From: Sphingomonas sp. S2-65
Lineage (GTDB): Bacteria > Pseudomonadota > Alphaproteobacteria > Sphingomonadales > Sphingomonadaceae
Assembly: GCF_021513175.1 (NCBI RefSeq)
Contig: NZ_CP090953.1
Coordinates: 3,530,501 to 3,594,500 of the forward strand
DNA length: 64,000 nucleotides
Direction of reading: 5' to 3'
In this document: piece after piece, positions 1,293 to 62,956 of the stretch
Layout of the letters: each line of letters starts with the position of its first letter
How positions within the stretch are numbered: the first letter of the stretch is position 1
The notes under the pieces: model-generated
What the model saw: only the letters and a program-made list of their open reading frames with translations
Told to the model about the DNA's origin: nothing
Database searches by the model: none
Program-made: the position numbers and the translations under genes

Positions 1293-1300
1293 TCTATAAA

Positions 1301-1430
1301 TCCTCCCTGGCACGGGGAGGGGGACCATGCGAAGCATGGTGGAGGGGGAGCGCCACAGGCGAGTAGTTCGCGGAAGCCCCCTCCACCCCTCGCTGTGAGG
1401 GCGGTCCCCCTCCCTGTGCCGGGGAGGATT
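1301..1430. repeat. Inverted pair of REP-like palindromic units
   Basis: Two copies of a roughly 50-bp unit lie head to head between fumC and the next gene. Each unit reads hairpin (TCCTCCC..GGGGAGG), then GGGACC with a small palindrome (for example CCATGCGAAGCATGG), then GGTGGAGGGGG. The right copy is the reverse complement of the left with small changes. The same modular plan recurs at 21541-21667 and around 60541-60993. It could fold into a long cruciform and may act as a transcription end point for fumC. The family name is not known to me; REP/BIME-like is a structural description. Confidence 0.85.
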
Positions 1431-21540: not shown

Positions 21541-21667
21541 AATCCTCCCCTGCAAGGGGAGGGGGACCGCGCCCGCAGGGCGTGGTGGAGGGGTATCCCG
21601 CCATCGATAGGCTGACACCCCTCCGTCAGCGCTGCGCGCTGCCACCTCCCCTTGCAGGGGAGGTTGA
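21541..21667. repeat. Inverted pair of REP-like palindromic units
   Basis: Left unit: TCCTCCCCTGCAAGGGGAGG, GGGACC, the palindrome CGCGCCCGCAGGGCG and GGTGGAGGGGT. The right unit is the reverse complement of the same plan (ACCCCTCCGTCAGC, GCTGCGCGCTGCC, ACCTCCCCTTGCAGGGGAGGT). The pair is the closest relative of the one at 1301-1430. It sits between the divergent sulfatase and methyltransferase genes; the remaining 240 bases up to 21909 show no convincing gene. Confidence 0.88.
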
Positions 21668-35954: not shown

Positions 35955-36037
35955 CGTCACCCCGGCCTTGAGCCGGGGTCCCGCTTCTTCTGGCCGGCAT
36001 GAGAAGAAGCGGGATCCCGGCTCAAGGCCGGGATGAC
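35955..36037. repeat. Near-perfect inverted repeat (GTCACCCCGGCCTTGAGC family)
   Basis: A 36-base arm beginning CGTCACCCCGGCCTTGAGCC is followed by about 12 loop bases and the matching arm ending GGCTCAAGGCCGGGATGAC, with very few mismatches. It lies between the convergent aldehyde dehydrogenase and fadD genes. One related pair is at 39465-39543 and a single arm at 13083. Probably a mobile palindrome that doubles as a transcription barrier. Confidence 0.9.
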
Positions 36038-39464: not shown

Positions 39465-39543
39465 CGTCACCCCGACCTTGAGCGGGGCCCCGCTGCTAAA
39501 CCGTCGGAAGAAGCGGGATCCCGGCTCAAGGCCGGGACGACGG
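39465..39543. repeat. Inverted repeat (GTCACCCCGGCCTTGAGC family)
   Basis: Arms CGTCACCCCGACCTTGAGC and GGCTCAAGGCCGGGACGACG with the shared GAAGAAGCGGGATCCC core found at 35955-36037. The arms are less perfectly matched here. It sits between the convergent DUF418 and clpA genes. Confidence 0.85.
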
Positions 39544-59123: not shown

Positions 59124-60524
59124 TCAGATATGCAGCGCCTTGCCATAGGCGCCGAGCACGCTTTCGTGCATCATTTCGCTGAGTGTCGGGTGCGGGAAGA
59201 CGGTTTCCATGAGCTCGGCTTCGGTGGTCTCGAGCGTCTTGCCGATGGTGTAGCCCTGGATCAGCTCGGTAACCTCGGCGCCGATCATGTGGGCGCCGAG
59301 CAACTCGCCGGTCTTGGAGTCGAACACGGTCTTGATGAAGCCTTCGGCCTCGCCCAGCGCGATCGCCTTGCCGTTGCCGATGAAGGGGAAGTTGCCGACC
59401 TTCACGTCATAGCCCGCTTCCTTGGCCTTGGCCTCGGTCAGGCCGACGCTGGCGATCTGGGGGTGGCAATAGGTGCAGCCCGGGATGTTCTTGGGGTCCA
59501 TCGCGTGCGGGTGACCGCCGGTGATCGCCTCGACGGCGATCACGCCCTCATGGCTGGCCTTGTGCGCCAGCCAGGGCGGGGCGGTGATGTCGCCGATCGC
59601 GTAGAGGCCGTCGACATTGGTCTTGCAGGTCGCGTCGGTCTTGAGGAAGCCGCGGTCGTCGATCGCGACGCCGAGTTCCTTGAGGCCGATATCGGCGGTG
59701 TTGGGGATGATGCCGATCGCGACGATGACGTGGCTATAGTCGCCCTGGATGAGCTTGCCGTCCTTGTCCTTGATCGTCGCCTTCACGCCGGCGTCATTGG
59801 CTTCGATCTTCTCGACCGCAGCCTTGGTCAGGATGGTCATGCCCTGCTTCTTGAGCGACTTTTCCAGGAAGGTGGAAACATCGGCATCCTCGACGGGGAC
59901 GATGCGGTCCATCATCTCGACCACGGTCACGTCGGAGCCCATGTCGTTGTAGAAGCTGGCGAACTCGATGCCGATCGCGCCCGAGCCGATGACCAGCAGC
60001 TTGGTGGGCATTTCCGCCGGCGTCATCGCGTGGCGATAGGTCCAGACGCGCTTGCCGTCGGCGGGCAGGTGGGGGAGGTCGCGGGCGCGGGCACCAGTGG
60101 CGACGATGATGTTCTTGGCTTCGAGCTCGGTGGTCTTGCCGTCCTGCGCGGTGACGCTGAGCTTGCCTTTGCCGGTCAGCTTGCCGGTGCCCATGTGCAC
60201 GGCGATCTTGTTCTTCTTCATCAGGTGCGTGACGCCCTGGTTGAGCTGCTTGGCGACGCCGCGCGAGCGCTTCACCACTGCGTCCAGATCGGCGCTGATG
60301 CCATCGGCGACCAGGCCGTAATCCTTGGCATGCTGCATGTAGTGGAAGATCTCGGCCGAGCGGAGCAGCGCCTTGGTGGGAATGCAGCCCCAGTTGAGGC
60401 AGATGCCGCCGAGCAGCTCGCGCTCGACGATCGCGACCTTGAGGCCGAGCTGCGCGCCGCGGATCGCAGCGACATAGCCGCCGGGTCCCGAGCCGAGGAC
60501 GATGAGATCGTAGGATTCAGCCAT
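59124..60524 (-). CDS. lpdA: Dihydrolipoyl dehydrogenase (E3)
   Basis: E3 flavoprotein of pyruvate and related dehydrogenase complexes; reoxidises dihydrolipoyl groups and makes NADH. The 466-residue product has the FAD motif LIVLGSGPGGYVAAIRGAQ, the redox disulfide in GGICLNWGCIPTK (about residues 40-47), the NAD motif LLVIGSGAIGIEFASFYND and the C-terminal active-site HPTLSEMMHESVL. The start MAESYDLIVLG at 60524 is preferred over an upstream ATG. It belongs to the minus-strand PDH group with the E2 gene, separated by a thioesterase, a small membrane gene and the DUF559 cassette. Confidence 0.97.
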   Translation of the reverse strand: MAESYDLIVLGSGPGGYVAAIRGAQLGLKVAIVERELLGGICLNWGCIPTKALLRSAEIFHYMQHAKDYGLVADGISADLDAVVKRSRGVAKQLNQGVTHLMKKNKIAVHMGTGKLTGKGKLSVTAQDGKTTELEAKNIIVATGARARDLPHLPADGKRVWTYRHAMTPAEMPTKLLVIGSGAIGIEFASFYNDMGSDVTVVEMMDRIVPVEDADVSTFLEKSLKKQGMTILTKAAVEKIEANDAGVKATIKDKDGKLIQGDYSHVIVAIGIIPNTADIGLKELGVAIDDRGFLKTDATCKTNVDGLYAIGDITAPPWLAHKASHEGVIAVEAITGGHPHAMDPKNIPGCTYCHPQIASVGLTEAKAKEAGYDVKVGNFPFIGNGKAIALGEAEGFIKTVFDSKTGELLGAHMIGAEVTELIQGYTIGKTLETTEAELMETVFPHPTLSEMMHESVLGAYGKALHI

Positions 60525-60536
60525 GGATGGTTCCAT

Positions 60537-60911
60537 TTAGAACTCCCTCCCCCTTGTGGGGGAGGGCTGGGGAGAGGGGTTGCGCTCGGCGGGGCTCGAT
60601 GCCCCGGCGGGCGCTTCGAGTGCAGTCAAGATGGCAGTTAGGACGGAATCGGGTTCCGCCAAGATGGCGTTGTTGTGGAAGCGCAGCAGGCGAAAGCCTT
60701 GTTCACGCAGCCAGGCGTCACGGGTGGCATCATACGCGCTGTCGATGTGCTGGGCGCCATCGGCTTCGACGATGAGGCGCGCGCCTAGGCACACGAAGTC
60801 GGCGATGTAGCGGCCGATCGGTTGCTGGCGCTTCCATTTGGTGTGGGCAAGGCGATGATTGCGGAGCAGGCGCCAGAGTTTGCGTTCGGCTTCGGTGGGG
60901 TGGGTGCGCAT
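60537..60911 (-). CDS. DUF559 nuclease-like protein ending in repeat DNA
   Basis: A protein of about 124 residues with the DUF559 domain, a relative of very-short-patch repair and restriction endonuclease folds. Core motifs: TEAERKLWRLLRNHRL, WKRQQPIGRYIADFVCLGAR, LIVEADGAQHIDS, and RDAWLREQGFRLLRFHNNAI. The pattern IADF..LIVEADG..H carries the acidic residues typical of such nucleases. Both edges run into repeat units: the last residues NPSPQPSPTRGREF are repeat sequence, and an alternative upstream GTG (60950) would add repeat-encoded residues. It is placed between lpdA and a thioesterase gene in the PDH operon, bounded by inverted repeat units. Confidence 0.85.
   Translation of the reverse strand: MRTHPTEAERKLWRLLRNHRLAHTKWKRQQPIGRYIADFVCLGARLIVEADGAQHIDSAYDATRDAWLREQGFRLLRFHNNAILAEPDSVLTAILTALEAPAGASSPAERNPSPQPSPTRGREF
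60541..60585. repeat. REP-like unit, left of DUF559 gene
   Basis: CCCTCCCCCTTGTGGGGGAGGG hairpin followed by CTGGGGAGAGGGGTTGCGC. It encodes the last residues of the DUF559 protein and, in the other orientation, matches the unit at 60933-60993. Confidence 0.82.
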
Positions 60912-60932
60912 TTCGCGCGCTCTGGCGAGCGC

Positions 60933-60993
60933 GCGCCCTCTCCCTCCCACGGCTGCGCGGCGGGCCCCTCCCTCCCCCACGAGGGGGGAGGGG
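60933..60993. repeat. REP-like unit, right of DUF559 gene
   Basis: Read on the minus strand: CCCCTCCCCCCTCGTGGGGG, AGGGAGGGGCCC, a CCGCGCAGCCG spacer, GGGAGGGAGAGGGCGCG. It is inverted relative to the left unit, so the pair faces inward across the DUF559 gene. Confidence 0.82.
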
Positions 60994-61005
60994 AAAGAAG
61001 AGAAT

Positions 61006-61398
61006 TCAGGCGGCACTTTCCGATACCACCCGCGGCTTCCGCTCGGCGTCGATCGCGACGAAGACGAACTGGGCCTGGGTTACGAGGCAGCTATCCTCCG
61101 AGTGGCGGGCGCGGCGCCAGGCCTGGACGTCGATGGTCATCGAGGTGCGGCCGACCTTTGCCATGTCGGCGAAGACGGAGACTTCGTCGCCGACCGCGAC
61201 CGGGGCGTGGAACTTCATGCCCTCGACCGCGATCGTGACGGCGCGGCCGCGCGAATAGCGCGAGGCTACCAGGCCGGCGGCCATGTCCATCTGGCTCATC
61301 AGCCAGCCGCCGAAGATGTCGCCATAGGGGTTTGCATCGGCGGGCATGGTAGTGACGCGGATCGCCGGCTGGCGGTTGGGCGGGGTCTGGTCAGCCAC
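61006..61398 (-). CDS. Acyl-CoA thioesterase (YciA-type hotdog)
   Basis: A 130-residue hotdog-fold thioesterase. Signature parts: NPYGDIFGGWLMSQMDMAAG, VTIAVEGMKFHAPVAVGDEV and LVTQAQFVFVAIDAERKP. YciA-type enzymes hydrolyse short and medium acyl-CoAs in the cytosol. The start is the GTG at 61398, overlapping the end of the upstream small gene by 8 bases (61391-61398), so translation of the two is coupled. A Tat-like or membrane signal is absent. A repeat unit begins 12 bases downstream. Confidence 0.92.
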   Translation of the reverse strand: MADQTPPNRQPAIRVTTMPADANPYGDIFGGWLMSQMDMAAGLVASRYSRGRAVTIAVEGMKFHAPVAVGDEVSVFADMAKVGRTSMTIDVQAWRRARHSEDSCLVTQAQFVFVAIDAERKPRVVSESAA

Positions 61399-61618
61399 GG
61401 GGCGTTCCTTTGGTGGTGCCGTCCAGCCGCGCGCGATCCTGGGCATAGGCGCGGCGCAGCGGGCCGATGCCCATCAGCACGATGATGACCATCGCGCCGT
61501 ACGCGACCAGCCAGATGTCGTCCTTGCCGAGCGGGTAGGACCAGGCCGCGAGCCAGGCGATGACGCAGCTCGCGATCAGGCCGGAGACGATGAAGGCGGT
61601 TTCGATGAGGACGCGCAT
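61391..61618 (-). CDS. Small two-helix membrane protein in PDH operon
   Basis: A 75-residue protein with two hydrophobic helices (TAFIVSGLIASCVIAWLAAW and YGAMVIIVLMGIG) and a basic C-terminal tail (RRAYAQDRARLDGTTKG). It begins 13 bases after the E2 gene stop (which lies at 61631) and overlaps the thioesterase start. No family could be named. Its fixed place between E2 and the thioesterase suggests it belongs to the operon; function unknown. Confidence 0.8.
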   Translation of the reverse strand: MRVLIETAFIVSGLIASCVIAWLAAWSYPLGKDDIWLVAYGAMVIIVLMGIGPLRRAYAQDRARLDGTTKGTPRG

Positions 61619-61630
61619 GGCCGGCGGGCC

Positions 61631-62956
61631 TTACGCGATCATGCCCATCGGCGCTTCGACCAGCGCCTTGAACGTCTGCATCAGCTCGGCACCGTCCGCA
61701 CCGTCGATCGCGCGGTGATCGAAGCTGCCGGTCGCGCTCATGATGGTCGCGATCTGGAGCGCGTCGTCGATCACGTACGGGCGCTTTTCGCCCGCGCCGA
61801 TCGCCATGATCATGCCCTGGGGCGGATTGATCACCGCTTCGAACTGCTTGATGCCGTACATGCCCATGTTCGAGAGGCTGGCGGTGCCGCCCTGATATTC
61901 CTCGGGCTTGAGCTTGCCTTCCTTGGCGCGGCCGGCGAGGTCCTTCATCTGCGTCGAGATCGACGAGACGCTGGCGCCGGCGGCATCGCGGATGATCGGG
62001 GTGATCAGCCCGGTGGGGGTGGAGACCGCGACCGAGACGTCGGCGCGGCTATATTTGATCAGCTTGTCGCCGGTGTAGGTGACGTTGCACTTGGGCGTCT
62101 GCTCGAGCGCGACGCCGAGCGCCTTGATCAGCAGATCGTTGACCGAGAGCTTCACGCCGCGCGCCTCGAGCGCCTTGTTGAGCTCGCCGCGCAGCTTGAG
62201 CAGCGCGTCGAGGCGGATGTCGACGGTCAAGTAGATGTGCGGGACGGTCTGCTTCGACTCGGTGAGGCGGCGCGCGATCGTCTTGCGGATGTTGGAGAGC
62301 TTTTCTTCCTCGTGCGGGATCGAGTCGTCGTACCAGACGGCCTTGGTCTCCTGCGAGGCGGCGGGGGCCGGCGCTGCGCTGGGTGCCGGAGCGGCAGCGG
62401 CGGGTGCGGCCTGCTGGGCGGCGGGGGCGGCACCAGGCTTGGCGCTCTCGACGTCGGCCTTGACGATGCGGCCGTTCGGGCCGGAGCCGGTGACCGCGGA
62501 AAGGTCGACGCCCTTGTCGGCGGCGATGCGCTTGGCGAGCGGGCTGGCTTTTACGCGATCGCCCGAGGCGGGGGCGGGAGCCGGGGTGGGTGCAGGTGCG
62601 GGCGTGGGCGCGTTCGTCGCACTTCCCCCTCTCCCGCCCTCGGCTTCGCCTTGGGCACCCTCTCCCCCTGAAGTGGGAGAGGGAGAGGGGGTGGGGGTTG
62701 CCGACGCGTCTTCGCCCTCGGCGAGGACGACTGCGATCACGGTGCCGACCTTTACGTTATCGGTGCCCTCGGCGACCAGGATCTTGCCGATCGTGCCTTC
62801 GTCGACGGCTTCGAACTCCATCGTCGCCTTGTCGGTCTCGATCTCGGCGAGGAGGTCGCCCGACTTCACCGTGTCGCCCTCCTTGACCAGCCACTTGGCG
62901 AGGGTGCCCTCTTCCATGGTGGGGGAAAGCGCCGGCATTTTGATTTCGATCGACAT
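61631..62956 (-). CDS. Pyruvate dehydrogenase complex E2 (dihydrolipoamide acetyltransferase)
   Basis: Core acetyltransferase of the pyruvate dehydrogenase complex. The 441-residue product has the N-terminal lipoyl domain ([20 protein letters not shown], lipoylated Lys in [16 protein letters not shown]), a long flexible linker, the E1/E3-binding domain ([20 protein letters not shown]), a second Pro/Ala-rich linker, and the catalytic domain with the active site [15 protein letters not shown] (about residue 411). The first linker is unusual: it contains a repeat-derived stretch ([20 protein letters not shown]) where other E2s have only Pro/Ala. The start at 62956 is the family start. Confidence 0.95.
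62620..62700. repeat. REP-like unit inside the E2 coding sequence
   Basis: CCCTCTCCC..GGGGGAGAGGG hairpin, then the GGCGAAGCC-type palindrome and GGGAGAGGGGG, read on the minus strand. The unit keeps the E2 frame open and is translated within the first linker. Its plan matches the other units in the window. Confidence 0.85.

Follow-up and report, generated by a model that had tools for sequence, protein, structure and literature searches.

DUF559 genes between inverted palindromic units in Sphingomonas sp. S2-65 and other bacteria: a possible two-part element resembling REPINs and RAYTs

Elsewhere in bacteria, REP repeats are mobilised by RAYT proteins that are encoded between inverted REPs, and DUF559 is a large protein family named for its unknown function. 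REP sequences and REPINs, with their RAYT (TnpA-REP) enzyme, represent the closest known system to the locus described here (PMC3733652; PMC3116915, PMC2817692). For the CGTC-tagged REPs, the accessible part of one survey states that no dedicated transposase is known (PMC3733652). BoxC/PIT/triplex motifs were noted in the 1990s, and in the accessible text of a 2015 study the E. coli copies had no mobility function near them, the authors suggesting only horizontal transfer (PMC4666352); another source, in its accessible portion, mentions BoxC just as a known family (PMC2267715). As for the enzymes, YcjD has been assigned to the PD-(D/E)XK superfamily, near Vsr (PMC1189080), while a role in mismatch repair and an active site with residue spacing 29, 13, 4, 5 were proposed for VsrA, a DUF559 protein of Caulobacter that provokes a DNA-damage response in cells lacking the cytosine methyltransferase ScmA (PMC12907096). 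In the open-licence PMC literature, with DUF559 papers covered by title and start of abstract, no report of a link between DUF559 and repeats was found.

The DUF559 locus, its units and its age

The window, meaning the whole stretch of 64,000 nucleotides from Sphingomonas sp. S2-65 that was analysed, contains the following features.

1299..1430, no strand: two inverted units forming a REPIN-like doublet, following the gene ending at 1292 (which we take to be a fumarase gene)
21541..21663, no strand: second REPIN-like doublet of the window
59124..60536, minus strand: lpdA (context)
60537..61016, minus strand: DUF559 ORF, 159 aa, GTG start
60543..60579, plus strand: left BoxC-like unit, from outside to inside CCCTCCCCC-loop-GGGGGAGGG-CTGGG-GAGAGGGG
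60615..60929, minus strand: DUF559 domain, covering residues 30-134; its E, D, E.D, H and D residues are conserved
60936..60992, minus strand: right unit, in inverted orientation; its spacer is longer than that of the left unit
61006..61446, minus strand: thioesterase gene (context)
61631..62956, minus strand: PDH E2 gene (context)
62627..62683, minus strand: third unit, within the PDH E2 linker (codes for about 23 residues)

The window protein was recognised as Pfam DUF559 (PF04480) by a profile search, with 132 bits against a curated cut-off of 20.6. The initial annotation had described two inverted copies of one palindrome around this gene, repeat sequence at the C-terminus of its product and the gene order E2 - small protein - thioesterase - DUF559 - LpdA, and our analysis agrees on all three. 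In the bracket test used throughout this study, the 300 bp preceding the domain are aligned to the 300 bp following it, taken as reverse complement, and a local score of at least 15 is required; the flanks at the window locus, with units at 60543-60579 (plus) and 60936-60992 (minus), scored 15, versus at most 10 for 16 windows slid along the same locus. The left unit encodes the final residues of the protein, NPSPQPSPTRGREF, and the ORF also traverses the right unit, its first in-frame ATG (60911) being six residues into the Pfam match. The gene order is given by the ORFs and recurs in Sphingomonas xinjiangensis (L039), the nearest relative compared (lpdA 97% identical), the gene names in the PDH region being those that the annotation assigned from sequence. 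The third unit encodes part of the flexible E2 linker, and the corresponding peptide is absent from the E2 of S. xinjiangensis.

In an alignment of 64 sequences, residues D40, E51, H57 and D63 did not vary, and E11 and D53 were almost invariant. An AlphaFold model of the window protein (pLDDT 79, pTM 0.70) matched 3HRL (E 2e-9), the catalytic domain of the EDxHD homing endonuclease I-Bth0305I (E 1.2e-3) and, more weakly, Vsr (E 0.3); the predicted fold of DUF559 is Vsr/homing-nuclease-like. The spacing of E11, D40, D53, H57 and D63 is 29, 13, 4, 6, compared with 29, 13, 4, 5 in VsrA (PMC12907096), and the putative Vsr-like catalytic residues are retained in the window protein. No cytosine methyltransferase gene lies beside the window gene, whose neighbours are PDH genes, and the VsrA gene of Caulobacter is likewise unlinked to a cytosine methyltransferase (PMC12907096).

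From its interruption of the PDH operon, the cassette had been thought to be an insertion. DUF559 occupies the PDH locus across many genera, and 17 of the 18 PDH-locus copies cluster in the tree (2 changes versus 17.2 when shuffled), so that a recent insertion into the operon was rejected; the 17-row fork of this clade is weakly supported (84/36), with 92/81 at the 16-row inner fork. Judged from these sequence comparisons, the window copy is an old syntenic orthologue, and in this it is more like a RAYT that has been retained for a long time than like a gene that jumps. The junction was also surveyed in 20 genomes with zero DUF559 or one weak match, from which 22 lpdA loci were returned; 18 of them also contain E2, and none of these 18 has DUF559. 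Cassette-free alleles do exist, as the E2-lpdA junction is closed (-12 to 62 bp) at eight loci, seven of them from genomes without any DUF559 match, while at the eight loci where DUF559 was present but a thioesterase was not detected, E2 and lpdA are 464-564 bp apart in seven cases and 939 in the eighth. The insertion proposed earlier is thus only partly borne out: the copy is old rather than recently inserted, and because of this age the closed junctions are possibly losses.

Two further observations concern such contexts. A sphingomonad-type PDH operon with a PDH-clade DUF559 gene is also present on a contig recorded under the name Bacillus sp. 2B10 (L043), and that genome is probably misassigned or contaminated. 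Elsewhere, as in the PDH case, DUF559 genes lie between co-directed housekeeping or pathway genes, the neighbours being GatB/YqeY-dnaG (L337), sufB-sufC (L338), transhydrogenase subunits (L346) and paaD-paaZ (L342).

The genome of Sphingomonas sp. S2-65 (3.80 Mb) has eight DUF559 matches, namely seven stand-alone genes, one of which has an in-frame stop, and one domain in a 1527-aa frame. Units adjoin all seven stand-alone genes when inspected by eye and six of the seven pass the bracket test, both units lying upstream of the gene at the seventh locus (L005). The type-I units of this genome have, by eye, outer ends AATCC..GGATT, an inner end GGAGGGG and no GTAG tag. The pattern CTCCCCN{2,8}GGGGAG occurs 149 times in the genome versus 2 for the backward control. 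Moreover, 464 kb of this genome (20 stretches, partly picked at known palindromes, plus the window) gave 72 unit matches, versus 1 in the reversed sequence, and 28 neighbouring inverted unit pairs 16-56 bp apart, and gene-less doublets far outnumber DUF559 cassettes. A RAYT was rejected as the mover in this genome because Y1_Tnp (PF01797), the one transposase family covered by our search, had 0 matches, with 5 of 14 control genomes positive in the same search. Another palindrome, of the CGGGATCCCGGCTCAAGGCCGGGATGAC type, is found at window positions 36003-36037 and 39507-39541 and also at L021 and L032; it is distinct from the DUF559 units and looks like the CGTC-tagged REPs.

The doublet at 1299-1430 is a discrete element of about 130 bp (query positions ~600-731 of 1201) that recurs at scattered sites in genomes of the genus, with 81-87% identity among the matches listed. 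Its site is polymorphic, and other genomes have there, by eye, a similar element, an element of another type, a lone hairpin (one genome) or nothing (several). No target-site duplication was found at the doublet sites examined, where empty alleles were too diverged or altered. Single hairpins that have an outer flank on either side also occur at L015, L019, L030, L032 and L271, and it is possible that they are excision scars from which the inside of a doublet was removed. The doublet spacers are generally unlike the interiors of DUF559 cassettes, with no excess over shuffles but one: nine inner ends were scored, the L006 end at 1972 was the next-door copy, and among the eight left only the L006 left end beat the shuffles, its best match being the next-door copy. 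Since the spacers do not resemble cassette interiors, an origin of the doublets by internal deletion is not supported.

Bracketing, repeat number and unit type across genomes

The earlier suggestion that DUF559 genes should be enriched beside inverted units was confirmed well beyond the window. Within the family, our own genome included, 115 of 136 loci were bracketed (27/29 top loci and 82/100 of the next in rank order, in a set that leaves aside the 16 lowest listed loci and the unlisted ones), and so were 23 of 25 loci on related contigs. Outside the family, the phylum gave 44/67, made up of 13/27 top loci and 31/40 further loci (taken without stops, partial hits, one very long frame, same-genus rows and lower rows), and plasmid records gave 12/20 (20 of 40 listed, 44 matching). 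By comparison, only 5 of 2568 slid control windows of the same geometry, drawn from the first 88 loci, were bracketed. The unbracketed loci were 14/27 and 9/40 in the phylum and 8/20 on plasmids; among the plasmid loci taken, Deinococcus had 4/4 bracketed and cyanobacteria 1/4. Bracketing was also seen in Brevundimonas, Caulobacter, Methylobacterium, beta- and gammaproteobacteria, Deinococcus and one cyanobacterial plasmid, so that the pairing of gene and inverted units is not confined to sphingomonads.

The bracket test was failed by E. coli ycjD and, on cyanobacterial plasmids, by DUF559 genes whose neighbours are DUF1156 or BREX PglX genes (L341, L349, L350). The latter have no bracketing units and perhaps reflect another role of the family, one linked to defence. 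In Pseudanabaena galeata pPg_02 (L352) the DUF559 domain lies inside a 4866-bp annotated gene, yet BoxC-like units bracket it. Inverted-repeat scores of 81-102, from repeats far longer than elsewhere, were obtained at L124, L297 and L348 (one of which is Sinorhizobium meliloti pSymB), and these loci are perhaps young copies. Additionally, two Nitrosomonadales/Gallionellales loci (L055, L057) have an extra inverted repeat, GGGTGCATTCGAAAGTGGTGGAC, beside the DUF559 gene.

Repeat number tracks DUF559 number, in agreement with what had been anticipated for this element. Among 99 genomes of the family, sampled at nearly one per genus, the number of palindromes correlated with that of DUF559 genes (Spearman 0.65, p 3e-13, kinship ignored), compared with 0.36 for Y1_Tnp, which is present in 17 of the 99. 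All 37 genomes with at least 20 palindromes have DUF559 and 11 of these 37 have Y1_Tnp, and the 11 DUF559-free genomes have 0-8 palindromes, or 1-8 when two palindromes are summed. The second palindrome alone gave 0.57 against DUF559 number and both summed gave 0.65, both patterns having been designed from units seen in this analysis. DUF559 is still found in 36 of the 46 genomes with at most three copies of the main palindrome, 14 of these genomes having two or more DUF559 genes, and DUF559 copies reach up to 10 per genome.

The type of unit follows the clade of the enzyme. Over the 115 bracketed loci, unit similarity and protein identity were correlated (0.356), and none of 300 within-genome permutations of the units reached this value (mean 0.073, maximum 0.20); for same-genome pairs alone the correlation was 0.31, which 1 of 2000 permutations reached. 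In the midpoint-rooted tree of 140 DUF559 domains a group of 27 (clade I) splits off with support of 100/100. Type-I units, with a CCTCCCC outer arm, were present at 21 of 21 clade-I bracketed loci (2 also fit the type-II pattern), and the other 98 bracketed loci comprised 0 with type I alone, 91 with type II (BoxC-like), 2 mixed and 5 unclassed, under unit-type patterns that overlapped at first and were refined after the data had been seen. Linked inheritance of the gene and its flanks could explain much of this match. Among dispersed copies, compared in 60 genomes with a locus, the first palindrome had a median of 42 copies elsewhere if it was at a DUF559 flank versus 3 if not, and the second had 13 versus 1.5. 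In single-type genomes (10 versus 9) the ratio of the two types differed at p = 0.03 with patterns that overlap, and at the level of whole genomes the agreement in type is weak after discounting overall richness.

BoxC motifs and ycjD in Escherichia coli

The units had been described initially as a REP-like superfamily, which their inverted doublets support, but part of them fits the already described BoxC/PIT/triplex-motif family: type-II units (e.g., L002 and the window left unit) agree by eye with the three-block Py-Pu-Pu motif in Table 1 of PMC4666352. The DUF559 gene of E. coli MG1655 is ycjD (1351407-1351760, minus strand), and BoxC motif 9 (1351239-1351204), the only match of a BoxC pattern search near the gene, lies 168 bp past its 3' end; by our own arithmetic (18 sites in 4.64 Mb), the chance of a BoxC site less than 250 bp from ycjD is 0.3%. 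By eye, the last codons of ycjD (RRSPSP-stop) are part of an imperfectly paired BoxC-like stem, and the 3' end of ycjD is partially duplicated between the gene and motif 9 (MG1655 fabI-ycjD, L292 3041-3407).

Variation among E. coli strains was also observed at unit sites. The inverted pair at hrpB-mrcB is absent as one block in strain A3, where the flank has changed as well, and the same shorter span occurs in 8 of 25 rows among the matches listed; at lldD-trmL, strain GN25 has a deletion ending inside a unit. At least 80% of the ycjD region is present in 3362 of 5426 E. coli genomes, eefRABCD has been reported at the place of ycjD in other genomes (PMC12817139), and two ycjD-less strains have other genes at the locus rather than a clean empty site. 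Other query-matching places, taken to be BoxC copies, had a median of 3 in 37 E. coli rows with ycjD versus 1 in 22 rows without it (listed row H211 left out), a difference to which we give little weight because it follows phylogroup.

Interpretation and comparison with known systems

Taken together, these results make it probable, in our judgement, that DUF559 and the palindromic units form a two-part element similar to REPIN-RAYT systems with a different enzyme, a Vsr/EDxHD-type PD-(D/E)XK nuclease. The full form would consist of a unit, the DUF559 gene and an inverted unit (~450-550 bp), and the small form of a unit, a short spacer (16-56 bp in our own genome) and an inverted unit (~100-130 bp), the latter numbering from tens to hundreds where a genome is rich in repeats. 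Single-stranded or supercoiled units may form a hairpin, cruciform or triplex; the cognate DUF559 nuclease would recognise the extruded structure and nick or cut at the unit, and repair or replication restart could then copy the doublet elsewhere or delete it. The role of DUF559 as the mobilising or maintaining enzyme of the repeats, put forward in the initial annotation, is therefore sustained with regard to association and co-variation, whereas we infer the recognition, cutting, moving and copying of units by the protein. Since the pairing of a gene between mirror repeats recurs in many other bacteria, our findings suggest that DUF559 maintains or spreads a family of repeats that had no known mover.

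Part of the same evidence could be read differently. If DUF559 were a homing passenger, the gene would insert into doublets that are spread otherwise and the units would provide target and repair homology rather than cargo, which is in keeping with its position between doublet halves, with a fold close to the catalytic domain of the homing nuclease I-Bth0305I (E 1.2e-3) and with the predominance of doublets without the gene. However, no other spreader was found in the S2-65 genome, where Y1_Tnp, the sole family searched, had 0 matches; DUF559-free genomes are nearly palindrome-free, which is unexpected for a mere passenger, and unit type tracks enzyme clade, so that we regard this explanation as unlikely. 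It seems improbable that DUF559 is a clean-up or repair nuclease that processes non-B palindrome structures or 5mC mismatches and is selected where repeats abound, with no part in spreading them: such an enzyme has no need for repeat bracketing, for up to 10 copies per genome or for clade-matched flanking units, and the window gene has PDH genes rather than a methyltransferase as neighbours, even though the old, syntenic PDH copy is what would be expected of a domesticated gene and the mismatch-repair proposal for VsrA, with its DNA-damage response without ScmA, points in that direction (PMC12907096).

DUF559 might also be a bystander, if a RAYT or some other transposase spreads the units and these come to flank short intergenic genes at random. 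The occurrence of Y1_Tnp in 17/99 family genomes, its weak correlation with the palindromes (0.36) and the restriction of our search to that transposase family leave some room for this idea, which we nonetheless hold to be very improbable, given 149 palindromes versus 2 for the backward control in a genome with 0 Y1_Tnp, the bracketing of only 5/2568 slid windows of the same loci and the 26 of 37 repeat-rich genomes that are without Y1_Tnp.

A two-part DUF559 element would provide REP biology with a second, unrelated enzyme class. We lean slightly towards a broader proposal, namely that the BoxC/PIT/triplex repeats, reported from over 260 bacterial genomes with E. coli K-12 among them, represent the small form of a class of mobile elements that spans the phylum and has the DUF559 nuclease (YcjD in E. 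coli) as its own enzyme, each DUF559 clade having its own unit type; no REP-like system before it would have had a PD-(D/E)XK structure-specific nuclease as its driver. The tie between DUF559 and BoxC would give the family a testable function and the repeat a testable enzyme, in E. coli K-12 (ycjD).

With regard to known systems, the window protein has the catalytic-domain fold in common with I-Bth0305I (PDB 3R3P) and differs from it in being flanked by repeats and in having no visible DNA-recognition domain. It shares family, fold and catalytic residues with DUF559/YcjD/VsrA and other Vsr-like nucleases (PMC1189080, PMC12907096, PDB 3HRL), whose literature, in the accessible parts, treats nuclease assignment or repair and not repeats (PMC1189080, PMC12907096). 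The CGTC-tagged REPs are similarly mostly alphaproteobacterial, form dimers and are without a known dedicated transposase, but their sequence, as given in the accessible part of the survey, is unlike that of the DUF559-flanking units, and the identification of our units as CGTC-REPs was rejected for this reason (PMC3733652). BoxC/PIT/triplex motifs and type-II units share the order pyrimidine block - loop - purine block - spacer - purine block as well as inverted pairs, which for BoxC occur in E. coli; the differences are that the accessible text on BoxC reports no mobility gene (PMC4666352) whereas DUF559 is linked to the units here, and that our type-I units have a second hairpin and the CCTCCCC outer arm. 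Compared with REP/REPIN-RAYT systems, the enzyme is a putative PD-(D/E)XK Vsr-like nuclease instead of an HUH Y1 transposase, no Y1_Tnp was found in our own genome, and the units are C/G runs without GTAG; nonetheless, both have short palindromes, dispersed inverted doublets (REPINs), an enzyme gene flanked by cognate repeats, repeat-type specificity, and few enzyme genes accompanied by many small copies.
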